From the NCBI GenBank assembly GCA_016938735.1, contig JAFGUB010000028.1:1-64000 (forward strand): a stretch of DNA of 64,000 nt. The letters are read 5' to 3'. Each line of letters opens with the position of its first letter. Position 1 is the first letter of the stretch. The translations under genes and the position numbers were made by a program. This DNA comes from Campylobacterales bacterium. GTDB taxonomy: Bacteria; Campylobacterota; Campylobacteria; Campylobacterales; Sulfurimonadaceae. Under the pieces are notes generated by a model. The model saw only the letters and a program-made list of their open reading frames with translations, made no database searches and was not told the origin of the DNA. Positions 54,015 to 63,036 of this stretch are shown piece after piece.

Positions 54015-56432
54015 ATGGATGAATTTCAAGAGATACTGCAAGACTTTTTGGTTGAATCCTTTGAGCTGATCGAGCAACTCGATCAGGATTTGGTGTTGCT
54101 CGAATCCTCACCGGATGATTTGGAGCTACTTAACCGAATTTTTCGTGTTGCGCACACCGTCAAAGGGGCGAGTTCGTTTCTGAACTTTGATGTGCTGACC
54201 CATCTGACGCACCATATGGAGAATATTCTCAATCTAGCGCGCCATGGTGATCTGCGCATTACGCCCGACATTATGGACGTGATCTTAGCGTCGATCGACT
54301 TGATGAAGGGGCTGCTGGAGCAGATCCGCGACAGCGGCTCGGATCAGGGACTGGATGTCTCTGAGTGTGTCGTGCGTCTTGACCGCGCGGCCGGAGGCAG
54401 CGGAGAGGTGGCGCATGCCGCAGCACCCAAAGCGATAGAAAAAGCTCCTGAACCCGTCGTGGCGGCTGCACCCCAGATACCGCAGGCAAATGACGATGAG
54501 ATCGACTATGCCAACTTGAGCGAAGCAGAGATCGAAGCGGAGATTGAACGTCTACTGGCGATGCGTCAGGCCGAAGACCGCGCTAAAAGAGAGGCAAAGA
54601 AAACGGAAACAGCGTTTGAGCCGGAGCCTCAAATAGAGGAGGAGTTTGACTTTATGCCGCAAAGCGAGCCTGTTCGTGCTGCGCCACCTCCACCACCCCC
54701 GCCACCTCCACCCCCACCGCCAAAAGCTCCCACTGCACCCAGAGGTGGTGGCGCTTCGAATGACCGCGATGATGGAGACAAGCGTTCTGCTACCGCCGTT
54801 GAGCAGACCATCCGCGTGGATGTCAAACGGCTTGACCATTTGATGAACCTGATCGGCGAGTTGGTACTTGGCAAGAACCGTCTGATTAAGATCAATGACG
54901 ATGTAGTGGAGCGCTACGAGGGCGAGGAATTCCTAGAGGAGCTCAATCAGGTCGTCTCGATCGTATCGCTGGTGACGACCGATTTGCAAATCGCGGTCAT
55001 GAAGACCCGTATGCTGCCGATCGGTAAAGTCTTTAACAAATTTCCCCGTATGATCCGAGACCTCTCCAGAGATTTGGGTAAAAAGATCGAGCTTGAGATC
55101 GGCGGAGAAGAGACGGAGCTGGATAAATCGATCGTCGAGGAGATCGGCGATCCGCTGGTGCATATTATTCGCAACTCTTGCGATCACGGTATCGAAAGTA
55201 CGGCGCAGCGGATTGCGGCAGGTAAAAATGAGACCGGCGTGATTCATTTGCGCGCCTACAACGAGGGTAACCATATTGTCATTCAAATCGCCGATGACGG
55301 TAAGGGACTGGATGTTGATTTGCTCAAAATGAAGTCGCTGGAGAAGGGGATCATCTCCGAAAAAGAGGCTGAAACCATGAGCGACAAAGAGGCATTCGGG
55401 CTGATTTTCCGTCCGGGCCTCTCAACCGCAAAGCAGGTGACCAACGTTTCGGGTCGCGGCGTGGGAATGGACGTTGTGAAAACCAACATCGAAAAGCTCA
55501 ACGGTATTATTGATATCGAGTCTGAGGTCGATGTAGGGACGACTATCAATTTGAAGATTCCGCTCACATTAGCGATCATTCAGGCGTTGCTGGTCGGGGT
55601 GCAAGAGGAGTATTACGCTATTCCTCTGGCTTCGGTTTTGGAGACGGTGCGCATCACCAAAGATGAGATTTATACCGTTGAAAGCCGCTCTGTCATGCGT
55701 CTGCGCGAAGAGGTGCTCTCTTTGGTGCATATCGGCGACATCTTTGAAGTCGAGCGGGTATTTGACGGTAGCGAGCACGCTTATGTCGTGGTGCTGGGGC
55801 TGGCCGAGAGTAAAATCGGTCTGATCGTCGATTCGTTGGTGGGCCAAGAGGAGATCGTTATTAAATCTCTGGGCGAATACCTTAAAGGCATTGACGGTAT
55901 CGCTGGAGCGACCATTCGAGGTGACGGCGGCGTGACGCTGATTGTGGATGTTGCGGCGCTGATGCAGATGGCCAAGTCGGTCAAATCAACCATCGGGCAA
56001 GAGAGCGGATCGCAAAAGAGTGCGCTCAAAGAGAAGACGCAGCCTAGCGACTACTGCGTGATGATCGTGGACGACTCCAAAACCGACCGCACCATCATGC
56101 GTACCTCGCTCGCACCGCTGGGAATCACGCTCATTGAGGCCACCGACGGTGTCGAAGCGCTCAATATTCTCAAAGCGGGCGATCATAACTTCGACGCGAT
56201 GCTCATCGATATCGAGATGCCGCGTATGGACGGCTACTCGTTGGCCACCGAGATTAAGAAGTACAATAAATACAAAAATATGCCGCTGATCGCCGTGACC
56301 TCACGCAGCGGCAAATCGGACCGTATGCGCGGTGTCGAGTCGGGGATGGTAGAGTATATCACCAAACCTTACTCGCCCGATTATCTGATGAACGTCGTTA
56401 AACGCAACATCAAATTCACGATGGGGGCCTAA
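54015..56432 (+). CDS. cheA: Chemotaxis histidine kinase CheA with C-terminal receiver (CheAY type)
   Basis: The 805-residue protein has an HPt domain with phospho-His 47 (FRVAHTVKGASSF), a linker with about 13 Pro in a row near residues 222-234, the dimerisation and ATPase core (GEEFLEELNQV, NSCDHGIESTAQR, GVGMDVVKTNIEKLNG), a CheW-like domain and a receiver (CVMIVDDSKTDRTIMRTSL, LIDIEMPRMDGYS). The fused receiver is typical of this phylum. It takes input from MCPs, including the PYP-MCP here by inference. Confidence 0.96.
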   Translation: MDEFQEILQDFLVESFELIEQLDQDLVLLESSPDDLELLNRIFRVAHTVKGASSFLNFDVLTHLTHHMENILNLARHGDLRITPDIMDVILASIDLMKGLLEQIRDSGSDQGLDVSECVVRLDRAAGGSGEVAHAAAPKAIEKAPEPVVAAAPQIPQANDDEIDYANLSEAEIEAEIERLLAMRQAEDRAKREAKKTETAFEPEPQIEEEFDFMPQSEPVRAAPPPPPPPPPPPPPKAPTAPRGGGASNDRDDGDKRSATAVEQTIRVDVKRLDHLMNLIGELVLGKNRLIKINDDVVERYEGEEFLEELNQVVSIVSLVTTDLQIAVMKTRMLPIGKVFNKFPRMIRDLSRDLGKKIELEIGGEETELDKSIVEEIGDPLVHIIRNSCDHGIESTAQRIAAGKNETGVIHLRAYNEGNHIVIQIADDGKGLDVDLLKMKSLEKGIISEKEAETMSDKEAFGLIFRPGLSTAKQVTNVSGRGVGMDVVKTNIEKLNGIIDIESEVDVGTTINLKIPLTLAIIQALLVGVQEEYYAIPLASVLETVRITKDEIYTVESRSVMRLREEVLSLVHIGDIFEVERVFDGSEHAYVVVLGLAESKIGLIVDSLVGQEEIVIKSLGEYLKGIDGIAGATIRGDGGVTLIVDVAALMQMAKSVKSTIGQESGSQKSALKEKTQPSDYCVMIVDDSKTDRTIMRTSLAPLGITLIEATDGVEALNILKAGDHNFDAMLIDIEMPRMDGYSLATEIKKYNKYKNMPLIAVTSRSGKSDRMRGVESGMVEYITKPYSPDYLMNVVKRNIKFTMGA

Positions 56433-56434
56433 CC

Positions 56435-56926
56435 ATGAGCGATAAGCTTCAAAGCATCATTAACAAGCAAAAAACGCAGCAGTCAACCGATGTGAACATC
56501 GAGGAGATTGTGCAGCTTGTCGGCTTCATTGTCGGCGACGAGGAGTTCAGTGTGCCCATACTCTCCATTCAGGAGATCATTAAACCGATCTCATGGACGC
56601 GCGTACCGCAGACGCCCAAGTACATTTTAGGTGTCTTCAACCTGCGCGGTTCGGTGATTCCGTTGATCGATCTGCGACTTAAATTCGGTCTGCCGCCGGC
56701 AAAACACACCGAAGAGACCCGCTTTATTGTGATCAAACACGCCGAAGAGGTGGCGGGCTTTGTGATCGATCGGCTCACCGAGGCGATACGCATCAAAAAA
56801 CGCGATATCGGCCCCGCACCCGAGACCATCCTCGAAGAGAAAAGCATGATTGAAGGGGTCGGCAAAAAGCAAGACCGCATCTTGACGATTCTTAAAGTCA
56901 ACAAACTTCTTGAGCGCGACTTTTAA
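56435..56926 (+). CDS. cheW: Chemotaxis coupling protein CheW
   Basis: The 163-residue single CheW domain has LVGFIVGDEEFSVPILSIQEIIK and VPQTPKYILGVFNLRGSVIPLIDLRLKFG, then IDRLTEAIRIKKRDIGP. It couples MCPs to CheA. It starts two bases after the cheA stop. Confidence 0.94.
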   Translation: MSDKLQSIINKQKTQQSTDVNIEEIVQLVGFIVGDEEFSVPILSIQEIIKPISWTRVPQTPKYILGVFNLRGSVIPLIDLRLKFGLPPAKHTEETRFIVIKHAEEVAGFVIDRLTEAIRIKKRDIGPAPETILEEKSMIEGVGKKQDRILTILKVNKLLERDF

Positions 56927-56944: not shown

Positions 56945-58252
56945 ATGAACGCTCCGCTTTATCACCAACGTCGAACGCAATGCCTAGAGCTGATGCAAGA
57001 AGGGCTAGCCGTTTGGTGCGCGGCCGCTGCGCAAACACGATCCAACGATACCGAGTTTCCCTTCAGGCAAGAGAGCAACTTCTACTACCTCAGCGGTCTG
57101 CGCGAAGAGGGTGCTGTGATCGTACTGTACAAAAGTCCCACGCAGCGCCGCTCAATCTTGTTTATCAAAGAGCCAAGCGAACAAGAGAAGCTCTGGGTGG
57201 GCGGCGGTATGGGGGTTGAGCGTGCCAAAGCGCAGACGGGATTTGAGGAGGTCTTCGACGTCGTTTCGTTTGAACCGATGATGGCTGATCTACTCAAAAA
57301 TATGCCGCTGCTCTATCTTGATCTTTTTGGCGAGAATGCCCATCTCTCCACACTTCGCGCTACATGTAAAGTCCTAATCCATCAGCGCGGTGTGCAGCGT
57401 TCGCCGCGTACCTTTAGCGATGCCCATCAGCTTACCCAGCGTCTGCGCCTTATCAAGTCCGATGAAGAGATCCTTCTGATCCGCAGGGCGATTGCGATCA
57501 CTGCTCTAGCGCATGAGGCCGCCATGTGCCTTGCAAAAGCGGGTATGTTCGAGGATGAGATCAGCACCGAGATCGACTATATTTTTGCCCGCAACAAAGC
57601 CCGTGCAAAAGCATATGAGAGCATTGTCGCCGGAGGCGATCGGGCCAACACCCTGCACTATATCGCCAACGATCAGGTGCTTGAAGCGGGGACTCTCCTG
57701 CTGATTGACGCGGGATGCGAATGGGAGATGTACGCCAGCGATATCACCCGAACCTTTCCCGTAGGAGGCCGTTTTTTGCCGCCGCAACGCGCGCTTTATG
57801 CCATGGTGCTAGAGGTGCAAGAACGCATTATTGCCATGATAGCGCCCGGCGTACGCAAAAAGGAGCTGCAAAGTGCGGCGGAGCGATGGCTTTGTGAGGG
57901 GATGGTCACGCTTGGTATTTTGCAAGGCGAGTGCGACGCGCTGATCGAAGCCAAGGCGCATAAAAAGTATTTTCCCCACGGTATCGGCCATTGGTTGGGG
58001 CTGGATGTACACGATCCCTGCCCTTACGTCGATGCGCAGGGCGAAGAGATCCCTTTTGTACCGGGAATGGTGCTTACCATCGAGCCGGGGATTTACATCC
58101 GCGCCGATGATACGGAGGTGCCTGAATGTTACCGCGGCATCGGTATACGCATCGAAGATGATGTTCTGATCACGCCTGAGGGGTGCGAAAACCTCTCCGC
58201 CGCAATTCCTAAAAGTATCGAAGCGATTGAAGCGCTTACATGTAAGGATTAG
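56945..58252 (+). CDS. pepP: Xaa-Pro aminopeptidase, M24B family
   Basis: The 435-residue protein has an N-terminal aminopeptidase P domain (NDTEFPFRQESNFYYLSGL) and the pita-bread catalytic domain with metal ligands in LLIDAGCEWEMYASDITRTFP, HGIGHWLGLDVHD, MVLTIEPGIYI and GIRIEDDVLI. It removes N-terminal residues before proline. The C-terminus (EALTCKD) is encoded by a TTACATGTAAGG copy at 58236-58247. The final bases overlap the convergent gene by four. Confidence 0.93.
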   Translation: MNAPLYHQRRTQCLELMQEGLAVWCAAAAQTRSNDTEFPFRQESNFYYLSGLREEGAVIVLYKSPTQRRSILFIKEPSEQEKLWVGGGMGVERAKAQTGFEEVFDVVSFEPMMADLLKNMPLLYLDLFGENAHLSTLRATCKVLIHQRGVQRSPRTFSDAHQLTQRLRLIKSDEEILLIRRAIAITALAHEAAMCLAKAGMFEDEISTEIDYIFARNKARAKAYESIVAGGDRANTLHYIANDQVLEAGTLLLIDAGCEWEMYASDITRTFPVGGRFLPPQRALYAMVLEVQERIIAMIAPGVRKKELQSAAERWLCEGMVTLGILQGECDALIEAKAHKKYFPHGIGHWLGLDVHDPCPYVDAQGEEIPFVPGMVLTIEPGIYIRADDTEVPECYRGIGIRIEDDVLITPEGCENLSAAIPKSIEAIEALTCKD

Positions 58253-58674
58253 CTGTAGCTATAGCTCCAGCCGGTCTGCCCCTCTACTTTCACCTCATGA
58301 AACCCCTTGGCATCGCCTAGAAAATCGATCACATAGAGCGGAACATTGGGGATACTCTGCTGATCCTCCGTTTTAAACAGATGCATCGGCATGAGGGTTG
58401 CTTTGTCGGTCTGCGCAAATGCGACCGGAGCGATTTCGCTCATGATGTCGGCGGTTTTGGTGATCTCGTATTGGTCACAGAACTTTTCAAAGACCGCCTC
58501 TTTAACCCCTGAGGGCAGAGGTGTATGGGTATTGAGAAAAATGGTGAAGTGAATGGGCAGCTCGTAGCGCGTCTTGGGCGCGGGTTGCGCCAAAATGATG
58601 TACTCCACACCGTGTAGGTGGGCAACAATGTCTGCAACGCTAAGGTGATGATGGGTTTTGATAGCACCGAACAT
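58249..58674 (-). CDS. Unknown protein, last gene of the PYP-MCP operon
   Basis: The 141-residue soluble protein starts at 58674, two bases after the previous gene's stop, with AGGAG overlapping that stop. It is His-rich at the start (THHHLSVADIVAHLHG), with a YELPIHFTIFLNTHTPLP segment that looks like a beta-strand and an internal Cys. No motif is recognised. Its place as the fifth gene of the operon suggests a role linked to the light receptor, but nothing in the sequence proves it. Confidence 0.6.
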   Translation of the reverse strand: MFGAIKTHHHLSVADIVAHLHGVEYIILAQPAPKTRYELPIHFTIFLNTHTPLPSGVKEAVFEKFCDQYEITKTADIMSEIAPVAFAQTDKATLMPMHLFKTEDQQSIPNVPLYVIDFLGDAKGFHEVKVEGQTGWSYSYS

Positions 58675-58676
58675 GG

Positions 58677-59156
58677 CTACTCCTGAAGCAGTTTTTTGAG
58701 AATATCGGCGAGGCCGAGGTGGAGGTTGTAGTTTGAGATGGGAAAATCGACCATTTCACGATGCAGATCGACGGAGTAGCCATGCAGATACTCCTGCAAA
58801 GGTTTTAGATCGATGGTCTCATAGTGTGCGGTTGCGGCAGGATCGAGCTTTGTTGCTTCCAGTGCCCCTTTGAGATTGCTGCGCTGAAGCAAAAAATAAA
58901 GCATACGCAGAGAGTAGAGGTCGCACCAACGTAAAAAGAGTGCGGCGTCGAGCTTTGCGGCGGGTTTGCCCTCGGGAGTGAAGAGGAGATTTTGGTCTCT
59001 TAACGGTAGCAGCACGCTTAAAACCGCTGCACATAAAGGCAGAATTTTGGGTCGCCAAAAGGGGGATTCGTTTCCGCGCACAAGGGCGCTTTGAAGGGCT
59101 TGCAGGATCTCTTCGTGTGTGTCATGGCTAAGAATGTGGGAGATGGGTTTTAGCAT
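58677..59156 (-). CDS. Unknown helical protein in the PYP-MCP operon
   Basis: The 159-residue protein starts 11 bases after the ammonia-lyase stop. It is predicted mainly helical, with a hydrophobic stretch LPLCAAVLSVLLPLRD near residues 38-53 and a region LRWCDLYSLRMLYFLLQ. The block SPFWRPKILPL is faintly reminiscent of conjugation or type IV secretion ATPase segments, but too weak to name. Function unknown; operon membership points to the light-receptor pathway. Confidence 0.6.
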   Translation of the reverse strand: MLKPISHILSHDTHEEILQALQSALVRGNESPFWRPKILPLCAAVLSVLLPLRDQNLLFTPEGKPAAKLDAALFLRWCDLYSLRMLYFLLQRSNLKGALEATKLDPAATAHYETIDLKPLQEYLHGYSVDLHREMVDFPISNYNLHLGLADILKKLLQE

Positions 59157-59167
59157 GGATGCTCGCT

Positions 59168-60715
59168 TTAAATGGGTTTGATTGTGTCGTTATGGTAGCA
59201 AAAAGGCTCTTGCTTGATCCACGCCGTAACGGCATGAATATCGTGATCCATTCTGCGGTCTTCAAGCAGCGGCGGCGCGATGGATCGGATGGAGTCGTGC
59301 AGCCATCTTAAAGCTTTGGAGCAGTGCGTGGGGGTGATGATATCCACCCCTTGAGCAATCCCAAGCAGGGCAATGGCGTAGATCTGTTGCAGCGTTTCGA
59401 TCTGCTCTAAAAAACGCAGCCCGGCTGTGGTGCCCATGCTGACCTTGTCTTGATTGAGCGACTCGGTGGGTCTGGAGTGGATGCTCGCGGCGGTGGTATT
59501 CATGATGACATCGCCGCAGAGTGAACTTAAAGTGATCTGCATCGCTTTAAAGCCGTGGTTGATCGTTTGATCCATACGTCTCAAGTCAGCACCGAGTTCT
59601 CCGTTGAACTTGCCATCAAAGAGTAAAGCACACTGCTTATCAACCAGATCGGCCAGATTGGCCGCGGCGATACGGACGCTGTCCATGGCCTGCGCCACAT
59701 GACCGCCATAGAAGTTGCCTCCGAAATGGACTGTGGCGTTGGAGGTGTCGATGAGCGGATTGTCGCTGGCACTGTTGATCTCGATCTCTATCCATTGGGT
59801 TGCCATGTCGGCGGTGTCGCGAACCATACCGATGATTTGCGGTGCGCAGCGCAGGCTGTAGCGGTCTTGAATATTGTGCGCGGCTTTGTGATGGAAATGC
59901 TTTTGGCGCATCTGCATGTTTTGAGTGCGCGTGGCGCCATGGAGTAAAGAGCGGATATTGTGGGCTGCCTCTATTTGGCCTTTGAACGGCTTTTGTTCGT
60001 GTATGAAGGCTGTCACTGCTCCGCTGTCGGCGCGCAGCAGCTCATAAAGCGCCGCCGTGATGCGCTCGGCGCAGGCGATAAGGGTTTTGAAGCGCTTGAG
60101 TGCGACGGTGGCAATGGCGCTCATCACGGCGGTTCCGTTCATGATCGCTAGCGCCTCTTTGGCTTCAAAATGCCACGGCTCGATCCCAAGACGCGCAAAA
60201 AGTTCGGCTGCTTGGTATTGGGTGTTTTGATAGCTGACCTCACGCTCGCCTGCCATCACGGCGGCGACATAAGAGAGCGGCGTCAGGTCTCCGCTCGCGC
60301 CCACTGAACCCAAAGAGGGGATGCAAGGATAGATTTTTTCGCCGATGAGCCGCGCCAAAAATGAAAGTAAACCGTAGCGCACGCCTGAAACCCCTTTGCA
60401 AAGACTGATCAGGCGGATGATCATCACCATGCGGACGATCTCCTCTTCAAGAAGCGCTCCCAAACCGCATCCGTGAAAGCGGTAGAGTGATTGTTGCAGC
60501 GCTGTCCGCGCATCTTGCGGAATGTAGCGGTTCCCATTTTCGCCAAAACCGGTATTGACGCCATAAATCACCATGCCCTGCTCAAGCAGCGTATGCAAAA
60601 TGCGATGGGCGGCGTTGATCTGTTCTTGAAACAAGACGCTATCATCAAGGGTAATGGTGCTGCAGGACTGCAGCTGTGCCATACTCACATGGCTGCCATC
60701 GATGTGTAGGGTCAT
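59168..60715 (-). CDS. Aromatic amino acid ammonia-lyase (HAL/PAL/TAL family), probable tyrosine ammonia-lyase
   Basis: The 515-residue protein contains the MIO-forming triad Ala140-Ser141-Gly142 in GSVGASGDLTPLSYVAAVMAGE, YGVNTGFGENGN at 51-62 and NQDKVSMGTTAGLRFLEQIE. Substrate-selectivity residues in SLYRFHGCG (Arg79-Phe80-His81) are neither the SH of typical histidine lyases nor the HH of Rhodobacter TAL. Operon partners, a PYP-bearing MCP and an acyl-activating enzyme, make L-tyrosine to p-coumarate the expected reaction; cinnamate or urocanate is not excluded. It overlaps the ligase gene (ATGA). Confidence 0.85.
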   Translation of the reverse strand: MTLHIDGSHVSMAQLQSCSTITLDDSVLFQEQINAAHRILHTLLEQGMVIYGVNTGFGENGNRYIPQDARTALQQSLYRFHGCGLGALLEEEIVRMVMIIRLISLCKGVSGVRYGLLSFLARLIGEKIYPCIPSLGSVGASGDLTPLSYVAAVMAGEREVSYQNTQYQAAELFARLGIEPWHFEAKEALAIMNGTAVMSAIATVALKRFKTLIACAERITAALYELLRADSGAVTAFIHEQKPFKGQIEAAHNIRSLLHGATRTQNMQMRQKHFHHKAAHNIQDRYSLRCAPQIIGMVRDTADMATQWIEIEINSASDNPLIDTSNATVHFGGNFYGGHVAQAMDSVRIAAANLADLVDKQCALLFDGKFNGELGADLRRMDQTINHGFKAMQITLSSLCGDVIMNTTAASIHSRPTESLNQDKVSMGTTAGLRFLEQIETLQQIYAIALLGIAQGVDIITPTHCSKALRWLHDSIRSIAPPLLEDRRMDHDIHAVTAWIKQEPFCYHNDTIKPI

Positions 60716-61593
60716 GCGGGATAGACCTTGTAGCCGCGTACCTTTTCGGCTCCGTCACGTCTTGCACCGACATAGAAGTGGGTGGCATCGACCCACGTGA
60801 GGTGGTCTTGGAGGGTGTCGCGCTCTTTTTGTGTCGGAAAGAGGGTGTAGGGCTCTTGGGGGTCGTTGCGGTAGCCTACGCCTAAAGTTTCGGTAGCGCC
60901 GTAGATCTCATAAATGCGCGCTGCGCCGCGCTCAAGCAGTCGCGCGTGGGTTGCGGGTGCTAGGGCCTGGGTGGAGCTGATGAGGGTGGTGTGCGGCGTG
61001 AAGCGTGCATCGATACGCTCAAGCAGATCGTAAAGGGTCGGTGTGGAGATGATAAAACTGTTGGGCTTGGTGTCGAAAAAAGCGCGCGAGGGCATCAGCT
61101 CTAAGCGGACAATGGGGCGTTTGAGTGCTTTTGGGAGCAAGATGGCGTACAAAAATCCATAAACGTGATGCAGGCGTACCGCGCTGTAAAGCTGCGTGGA
61201 TGAAGAGAAGAGCGACGCTAAAAACGCTACTTCATTCCACAAAGCGTCATAGCGATGCGTCACGGCCTTGGGTGCGCCTGTGCTCCCTTTGGTGTGAAAG
61301 GTGATGGTTTCACGATAAAGATCCAAGCTGTCAAGGATGATGTTGCACCAGCTTTTAAGCGTAGGATAACGCAGCAGCAGATCTTCAAGACCGGACTCAT
61401 AGAGGCCGAAAAATTGGCTCACCTGTGCCGCAAATTGCACCAGATCGAGTGAGTCAAATCCCATTTCGCGCAGGGGCTGCTCCAGCTGGGCGTAGAGATA
61501 GGAGTGGTAGGTCTGATCTTTATTGCTTCGATGCTCGCTTAGCATCGATTGCAAAAGGAGTGTAACCTCCTGTTCGCTTAAAACGGGGGGCAT
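60712..61593 (-). CDS. ACP fused to a minimal AMP-ligase domain, predicted p-coumarate-activating enzyme
   Basis: The protein is 293 residues from the ATG at 61593 (a TTG three bases earlier is possible). Residues 1-85 are an acyl carrier protein-like domain with a phosphopantetheine Ser in GFDSLDLVQFAAQV (about Ser48). From residue 96 comes an ANL core: ITFHTKGSTGAPK (P-loop) and IYEIYGATETLG. It ends at EKVRGYKVYPA, exactly where the C-terminal lid with its catalytic Lys would begin. Both the N-terminal ANL subdomain and the lid are missing compared with 4-coumarate-CoA ligases of about 500 residues or more. Predicted to load a hydroxycinnamate onto its own ACP. Confidence 0.75.
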   Translation of the reverse strand: MPPVLSEQEVTLLLQSMLSEHRSNKDQTYHSYLYAQLEQPLREMGFDSLDLVQFAAQVSQFFGLYESGLEDLLLRYPTLKSWCNIILDSLDLYRETITFHTKGSTGAPKAVTHRYDALWNEVAFLASLFSSSTQLYSAVRLHHVYGFLYAILLPKALKRPIVRLELMPSRAFFDTKPNSFIISTPTLYDLLERIDARFTPHTTLISSTQALAPATHARLLERGAARIYEIYGATETLGVGYRNDPQEPYTLFPTQKERDTLQDHLTWVDATHFYVGARRDGAEKVRGYKVYPA

Positions 61594-61596
61594 CAA

Positions 61597-63036
61597 TCAG
61601 ATGCGTTTAACAAAGACCCAATAGCTGTTTTTGGTCGGATCTTGTTTCATTTGAACTTTGACGCGGGTAGGGCGCATGTTGTAGTCGAAGGTGTACTCAA
61701 AGAGGGCATTGAGCGATCCTCGATCGATTCCCTCTTTGAAGCGGCCATAAAATTCGGGCGAGTTGGTACACGGCGCAACATCTCTAAAGAAGTTTTTGCC
61801 TACGGCTTGCGAGGGATCACGCCCTGTTATGTCGCCTTCGACGGCGTTGTACTGCAAAATTGTGCCGTTACGGTCTAGTTCTACGGCGCCAAACGCCAGT
61901 TTGTCGAGCTCCTCTTTACTCATTTTGCTGAGTTTATTGGTGAGATCCCCAGCGTCAAAACGGATCACTTCAGTACGTTGCATGCGGGCATAGCCCTCTG
62001 ACGCGCTGCCGCTTGAGCTGACGTGCGTTACCCAATCATCTACAATATCGTTAACTTTGACCGCGATGGTATCGGCGTCGCTGGCAGCTTGAGTGGAGTC
62101 GTGCGTGCTCGATTGGAGGGTCTGCATTGAGGTGTTGATGTCGTCAAGGCTGCTGGTTTGATCCTGAATTTTGTGGTTGATATCGGTCATTGATTGAATC
62201 AGGCTTTGAACGCTCATGCTGATGTCCGAGAGGCTTTTTTGGGTCTTTTCGGCCAGTTTACGCACCTCATCGGCAACCACCGCAAACCCGCGTCCATGTT
62301 CGCCGGCACGCGCCGCTTCGATGGCTGCGTTGAGGGCAAGCAGGTTGGTCTGATCGGCGATATCGCTGATGACGTTGATGACTGATTTGATCTCTTCAGA
62401 TTGTGAGGTGATGTGTCCGGACTGACTGGCGATGTCTTCGATGCTGCTGTGTAAAACAATCAATGCCGAAGAGCTGCTCTGGAGTGACTGGGCCTGGTTG
62501 GTAATGATGTGACTCAGCGAGGAGACGATACGGGTGAGATTGGCAGCTTCATGTTTAAGCTGATGAAGTTGTGTCGTGTCAACTTTTTTAGATTCTGCGC
62601 ACTGCTCTTCAATCTTTTGAATAAATGATGCTGTAGAAGGATACTCTTCTAAAACGGCACCAGCGTTTCCTCTGGAGAGCTGTTTGAATGCTTCGGTGAC
62701 GCGGTCTTTGGCGAGTTGGCGTGCATTGGTATCAGCATGTTCTATAAGCTCTTGTAATTTCGGTAACTCTGTTTTGATACTCTGTTGGCGTGCAAAAGCC
62801 TCGGAAACCTCTTGAATCTGCCGATGCATTTTAGTTAGCTGTTCTTTTTGGGTCGATAGTTCTTGCGTGAGTGAGGGAACTTTTTGAGCCTCAGCCGCCA
62901 ATGATACCAAGCCGCCAATGGCAGTGATCAGTCCGATACCTACAACGATCCACATAGCTAAACCACCTATTTGCACTGCCAAAATTGTTCCAGCCAGTAG
63001 CAATAAAACCCCAATTCCCGATAAAATAATTCCCAT
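61597..63036 (-). CDS. Methyl-accepting chemotaxis protein with C-terminal photoactive yellow protein domain
   Basis: The 479-residue protein starts with two short membrane helices (about 2-20 and 26-46), then coiled coil, then the conserved MCP hairpin tip ([40 protein letters not shown]). Residues 357-479 align with Halorhodospira PYP without gaps: Tyr396, Glu400, Thr404 and Arg406 in [15 protein letters not shown] match Tyr42, Glu46, Thr50 and Arg52, and Cys423 in [11 protein letters not shown] matches the chromophore Cys69. It should bind p-coumarate and respond to blue light. No periplasmic sensor domain exists. First gene of a five-gene operon. Confidence 0.93.

Follow-up and report, generated by a model that had tools for sequence, protein, structure and literature searches.

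The window analysed here is a stretch of 64,000 nucleotides from the draft genome of a Campylobacterales bacterium of the family Sulfurimonadaceae (assembly GCA_016938735.1, contig JAFGUB010000028.1). Towards its end, at 61597-63036 on the minus strand, lies a gene for a protein of 479 amino acids in which a methyl-accepting chemotaxis protein (MCP) is joined to a C-terminal photoactive yellow protein (PYP) domain; it is followed on the same strand by a p-coumarate ligase-like gene (pCL) and by a gene for an aromatic amino acid ammonia-lyase. A first-pass annotation, made from the letters alone, had placed a PYP-chemoreceptor fusion at these positions, and the reading frame is as it described, opening with ATG at 63036 and running without an internal stop. 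Coding on the plus strand of the same interval is rejected, no long frame being found there. Upstream of the gene, no sigma-28 or sigma-54 promoter pattern was found.

The PYP domain and the chemoreceptor

By profile and by fold, the C-terminal domain is a genuine PYP. The NCBIfam model TIGR02373 (photo_yellow) matches residues 356-479 (61600-61971, minus strand) over all 124 profile positions at 172.1 bits, above its curated cut-off of 143.05 bits, whereas the generic PAS match in the Pfam scan is far weaker (PF00989, residues 377-464, 41 bits). The top phmmer matches in PDB are those of Halorhodospira halophila PYP (E about 5e-52), with 80 of 125 residues identical and no gap, as the annotation had aligned them; the counterparts of Tyr42, Glu46, Thr50, Arg52 and Cys69 fall exactly on the residues it had listed, namely 396, 400, 404, 406 and 423, the last of which (codon 61768-61770) stands for the chromophore-binding cysteine. 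The pocket also retains Phe62, Val66, Ala67, Pro68, Phe96, Tyr98 and Met100, and of the 13 pocket positions checked 12 are kept, the sole change being Ile31 to Val385. In the AlphaFold2 model the PYP region mostly has a predicted local distance difference test score (pLDDT) of about 75-94, and the first 41 Foldseek rows are all PYP entries (E from 1e-16 to 5e-8); H. halophila PYP is matched with a TM-score of about 0.90-0.92 by target and 64% identity, while the first non-PYP PAS domain appears at an E-value of 6.5e-6, ten orders of magnitude weaker. A profile search and a structure prediction were the two checks that the annotation had proposed for its assignment, and both favour it over a generic PAS domain. 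Candidates such as a generic PAS, flavin or haem sensor are rejected by the same profile and fold rankings.

The receptor half is equally recognisable. PF00015 (MCPsignal) covers residues 197-344 at 118.7 bits, and the signalling hairpin (residues 155-341; 62014-62574, minus strand) is modelled as two long antiparallel helices, residues 155-243 and 249-341, with a conserved tip near 240-248, so that the hairpin is complete, as had been claimed. A flexible linker (residues 342-355; 61972-62013), with pLDDT below 50 at 343-360, leads into the PYP domain. The full-length model is of moderate overall confidence (mean pLDDT 71.6; predicted TM-score, pTM, 0.34).

At the other end, hydropathy shows two neighbouring hydrophobic segments within residues 1-50 (62887-63036, minus strand; model helices 2-22 and 27-82), which form a two-helix membrane hairpin; the loop that separates them has only a few residues and leaves no space for a periplasmic domain, in keeping with the absence of a periplasmic sensor noted earlier. 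The protein is thus membrane-anchored with its PYP on the cytoplasmic side, which supports the earlier description of a soluble-side sensor. The region between membrane and hairpin (residues 51-154; 62575-62886, minus strand) is helical and of low confidence in the model; the Pfam scan detected no HAMP domain in the protein.

A sensor placed after the signalling hairpin had been regarded as unusual, and this view is not sustained. The modelled arms each span about 95 residues, which brings the bundle's C-terminal end back to a point opposite a helix break at 149-154; judging from these helix lengths, the PYP domain would accordingly begin where the four-helix bundle has its base. Because the hairpin folds back on itself, the arrangement is not odd mechanically. 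Nor is it without precedent: C-terminal MCP-PYP fusions have been published, first in Methylomicrobium and then in 12 cases, all in the same domain order (PMC12826048), which also removes the novelty that the annotation had implied, for an MCP with a C-terminal PYP is not a new kind of protein. Among the published examples, whose hosts include Methylomicrobium alcaliphilum (G4T070), Methylomonas koyamae and Nitrincola alkalilacustris, are some that have fewer transmembrane helices or lack HAMP; their pocket is conserved, as in the window (PMC12826048). Within the host genome itself, five of the ten other MCPs scanned carry a CZB domain after the hairpin (L045, L049, L054, L055 and L057, one of them also with a dCache domain); they share the position of the sensor with the MCP-PYP and differ in that it binds zinc and does not sense light.

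The pigment genes

The pCL-like gene (60712-61593, minus strand; 293 amino acids) starts 3 bases beyond the stop of the MCP-PYP gene, and its own stop is overlapped by 4 bases by the lyase gene (59168-60715, minus strand). Both had escaped the first-pass annotation, whose suggestion that light is the likely input is upheld by the true PYP domain and by these neighbours; of all the sequence evidence, pigment genes in the receptor's own operon speak most strongly for light as the input. A pCL gene lies directly 3' of PYP in nearly all the pyp loci fetched; a published survey found a tyrosine ammonia-lyase (TAL) gene in only 7 of 113 pyp operons and a pCL gene in 42 (PMC12826048).

The lyase matches PF00221 at 490 bits and scores under the HutH cut-offs of NCBIfam. 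It has the ASG tripeptide of the 4-methylideneimidazole-5-one (MIO) group and, in the alignment, a Gln where histidine ammonia-lyases (HAL) have Glu; following the published rule for this position (PMC3992019), it is of the phenylalanine ammonia-lyase (PAL)/TAL kind and not of the histidine type. From these features the enzyme is a probable tyrosine ammonia-lyase.

The ligase has a confident model (pLDDT 87, pTM 0.85), and its AMP-binding core (PF00501) is present and matches acyl-CoA ligases; the protein stops at the hinge motif, and the C-terminal domain AMP-binding_C (PF13193), found in 16 of 19 pCLs scanned, is not found in it. In an alignment of 25 pCLs the C-terminal lysine motif is kept by most and lost in those of the host's family and of a Halothiobacillus metagenome-assembled genome (MAG). 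This shortening is a trait of the lineage: the ligase of the Halothiobacillus MAG is cut short in the same way, and those of two further family genomes to a lesser extent. The ligases of the MCP-PYP lineage that lack the catalytic lysine region are those at 60712-61593 (minus strand), L020:2522-3427, L041:433-1497 and L042:1873-2937.

An N-terminal domain is common to all 25 aligned pCLs and contains, within a DSL motif of the carrier-protein type, an Asp-Ser pair that never varies; in the window it is Asp47-Ser48 (Ser48 codon 61450-61452) within a carrier-protein-like segment at 61342-61485, minus strand. PF00550 (phosphopantetheine attachment site) matches the window pCL at 27.6 bits against a cut-off of 20.8, and it matches this one alone among the 19 pCLs scanned; a profile comparison with Escherichia coli AcpP, used as an approximate query, aligned only 23 residues around the serine with a probability of 28%. 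The invariant serine, present in the pCL genes of the window and of L020-L043, might hold an in-cis phosphopantetheine arm for chromophore loading. By sequence, a ligase combining this invariant serine with a missing catalytic C-terminus is new.

Recurrence, mobility and origin of the fusion

PYP domains above the TIGR02373 cut-off occur in 4 of the 228 genomes of the host's family. Three of them hold MCP-PYP, pCL and lyase together: the window, L041/L088, in which the lyase is divergent, and L042/L089, in which the gene order is that of the window. The fourth, G327 (L043:2885-3538), retains an intact pCL gene and remnants of lyase and PYP that abut head to head, the 5' parts of both (for PYP, the first 28 positions) being lost, the pattern expected from one deletion spanning two divergently arranged genes. 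Outside the family, the Halothiobacillus MAG (L020) carries an MCP-PYP gene together with a pCL and a lyase of divergent sequence. Identity to the MCP-PYP of the window is 48% overall and 73% over the PYP domain. Its lyase is only about 31% identical, and the MCP-PYP/pCL pairing thus exists with two different lyases. In the three other assemblies (L020, L041 and L042) MCP and PYP are joined in the same region as in the window, and the proteins show 46-49% full-length identity to it; shared by two further family genomes and the Halothiobacillus MAG, the fusion is due neither to chance nor to a single misassembly.

A relative of another genus (G133, L099:4687-11516) has cheAY-cheW-pepP-orfA-orfB and clpB in the order of the window, with an unrelated gene of 232 amino acids at the place of the cassette. 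The same locus being found without it, the cassette is a mobile unit that was inserted among chemotaxis genes of conserved order; its nearness to cheAY and cheW need not be functional. On this comparison of genomes, the MCP-PYP fusion is real and mobile, and its lineage travels as a kit of three genes.

In the PYP-domain tree, the window, L020, L041 and L042 form one group with the G327 relic (support 100/98), and the fusions of methylotrophs (L021, L022 and L025) form a separate group (99/98), which sits inside mostly alphaproteobacterial single-domain PYPs. The tree of the MCP halves likewise keeps the window lineage apart from the methylotroph fusions. Both trees therefore favour a fusion in the window lineage that was probably independent of that of the methylotrophs, although a topology that forces every fusion into a single clade is not rejected (approximately unbiased test, p 0.097 for PYP and 0.075 for the MCP part). 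Sampling 392 genomes from a gammaproteobacterial order, and another 369 from the class, yielded no MCP-PYP fusions beyond those already found. Compared with the methylotroph fusions fetched, the window protein belongs to another branch of PYP and has another type of MCP, and its locus has pCL and lyase, whereas the methylotroph loci fetched have pCL and no similar lyase within their 7 kb flanks.

A broader proposal may be put forward as tentative and rather doubtful: that MCP-PYP arose at least twice, in methylotrophic gammaproteobacteria and in the lineage shared by Campylobacterota-type bacteria and the Halothiobacillus MAG, PYP having been attached on both occasions behind the hairpin, where the bundle has its base; and that PYP ligases bear their own carrier-protein arm, at the invariant DSL serine, delivering p-coumarate without free CoA, the shortened ligase being the extreme form. 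A second lineage with PYP at the same C-terminal place, if true, would suggest that the coupling of a light switch to a chemoreceptor obeys a mechanical rule.

What is new, on the sequence comparisons above, is a distinct PYP/MCP lineage common to the host's family and the Halothiobacillus MAG. The literature search found no description of it, although a member from Campylobacterota may have been listed earlier; nor did it find a report of PYP in connection with Sulfurimonas or Sulfuricurvum. Campylobacterota account for less than 1% of 984 PYP homologs (PMC12826048), and the locus brings blue-light sensing to a group in which PYP is seldom met. In the search of the phylum with TIGR02373, 14 of 16 matches were weak, below the cut-off, and resembled ordinary PAS domains.

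A candidate blue-light chemoreceptor

The MCP-PYP and its operon are best regarded as a blue-light chemoreceptor equipped with its own pigment kit and giving a light-dependent swimming response, a reading to which I assign a probability of roughly 70%. The lyase would turn tyrosine into p-coumaric acid, pCL would activate it, and a thioester would join the product to Cys423 in PYP. The receptor would be held in the inner membrane by its short two-helix hairpin, sensing nothing outside; with the MCP hairpin folded back, its C-terminal end would come to the membrane-proximal base of the bundle, leaving PYP approximately where HAMP normally acts. Blue light would then isomerise the chromophore and partially unfold PYP, and the unfolding may alter the packing of the bundle and hence, via CheW, the activity of CheA and the behaviour of the flagella. 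Phototaxis by the host is likely, and its sign, as a guess for a non-phototroph, may be avoidance of blue light.

The output proposed earlier, chemotaxis, is supported by flagellin, CheR, CheAY and CheW genes of the host, whose genome has 16 MCP, 4 CheR and 4 flagellin matches. The candidate output partner is cheAY (54015-56432, plus strand), a kinase with a fused receiver found in the same order in the cassette-free L099; next to it lies cheW (56435-56926, plus strand), encoding the coupling protein, with 78% identity in L099. The fused CheAY, together with the C. jejuni-type CcaA as best full-length MCP model, is consistent with Campylobacterota.

Several points weigh against this reading. 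Phototaxis was sought in Nitrincola alkalilacustris, a host of an MCP-PYP, and not seen (PMC12826048). The window pCL lacks the C-terminal part bearing the catalytic lysine and scores 160.7 bits with TIGR02372 (4-coumarate--CoA ligase), under the curated cut-off of 334.7, hence pigment activation may need another ligase. The lyase, whose substrate is predicted, has Phe at the first selectivity position (RFHGCG), and not the His reported there for TAL (PMC3992019). Finally, the MCP part of the structural model is only moderately confident, as scored above, and a strict E. coli-type methylation motif was not found in the MCP-PYP hairpin, as it was not in the other MCPs of the genome.

The motile Nitrincola, in which no phototaxis was detected, also lends some weight to an unlikely alternative, namely that the protein is a working photoreceptor whose output is not steering but another function linked to CheAY or to the receptor array, for instance surface attachment, phototaxis being absent or minor; PYPs elsewhere govern biofilm and pigment synthesis (PMC12826048). 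Set against it are the flagellins and apparently standard CheAY/CheW system of the host, and the fact that the MCP domain is the sole output domain of the protein. It is more unlikely still that the cassette is decaying or non-pigmented, with an apo-receptor or a function being lost through the truncated pCL. The stop of pCL at the hinge motif, the deleted remnant in G327 and the patchy presence in the family would fit such a decay, yet in the window none of the three tightly packed cassette genes is interrupted, PYP has kept its pocket whole, and the shortening of pCL, shared with the Halothiobacillus MAG and in a lesser form with two family genomes, is a lineage trait. Neofunctionalised PYPs with substituted pocket residues have been proposed (PMC9664959), but a PYP domain sensing redox or a small molecule is very improbable here, where none of the counterparts of Tyr42, Glu46 and Cys69 is lost and the pigment genes lie next door. 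An artificial join of MCP and pyp sequences during assembly, conceivable in a draft of 62 contigs, is refuted by the same fusion and junction in three other assemblies.

The reading as a blue-light chemoreceptor also finds parallels in known systems. When isolated, the PYP domain of the Nitrincola fusion shows absorption at 447 nm and a photocycle of 0.5 s (PMC12826048). Ppr of Rhodospirillum (Rhodocista) centenum/centenaria is likewise a larger signalling protein with PYP, linked to the chemotaxis pathway (PMC2993699); it differs in having an N-terminal PYP with phytochrome and histidine kinase, and not an MCP. In Leptospira, PYP is paired with a sensor-less MCP, as in the window, but as two separate proteins (PMC9664959).

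The gene set of H. halophila has the same three functions (PYP, pCL and TAL), whereas its PYP is a free single domain, not known to have a signalling partner, and that of the window is fused to an MCP. PYP ranks among the best-studied photoreceptors, its signalling partner has been in question, and a covalent MCP-PYP with its pigment genes makes signalling from PYP to CheA testable in one purified protein.

The genes at 58249-58674 and 58677-59156 were considered as further members of the cassette and rejected, since both stand beside cheAY-cheW-pepP in the cassette-free relative; the latter is an ordinary gene of the family, present in 21 of 41 relatives. Among other pyp loci, Skermanella stibiiresistens encodes a protein of 667 amino acids (L034:4491-6494, minus strand) that ends in a further PYP-like domain, which has diverged (40% identity), and adjoins a single-domain PYP gene (L034:6965-7372, plus strand), while the pyp gene of a Phenylobacterium MAG (L039:6956-7385) is apparently split by a frameshift between the halves of the domain.
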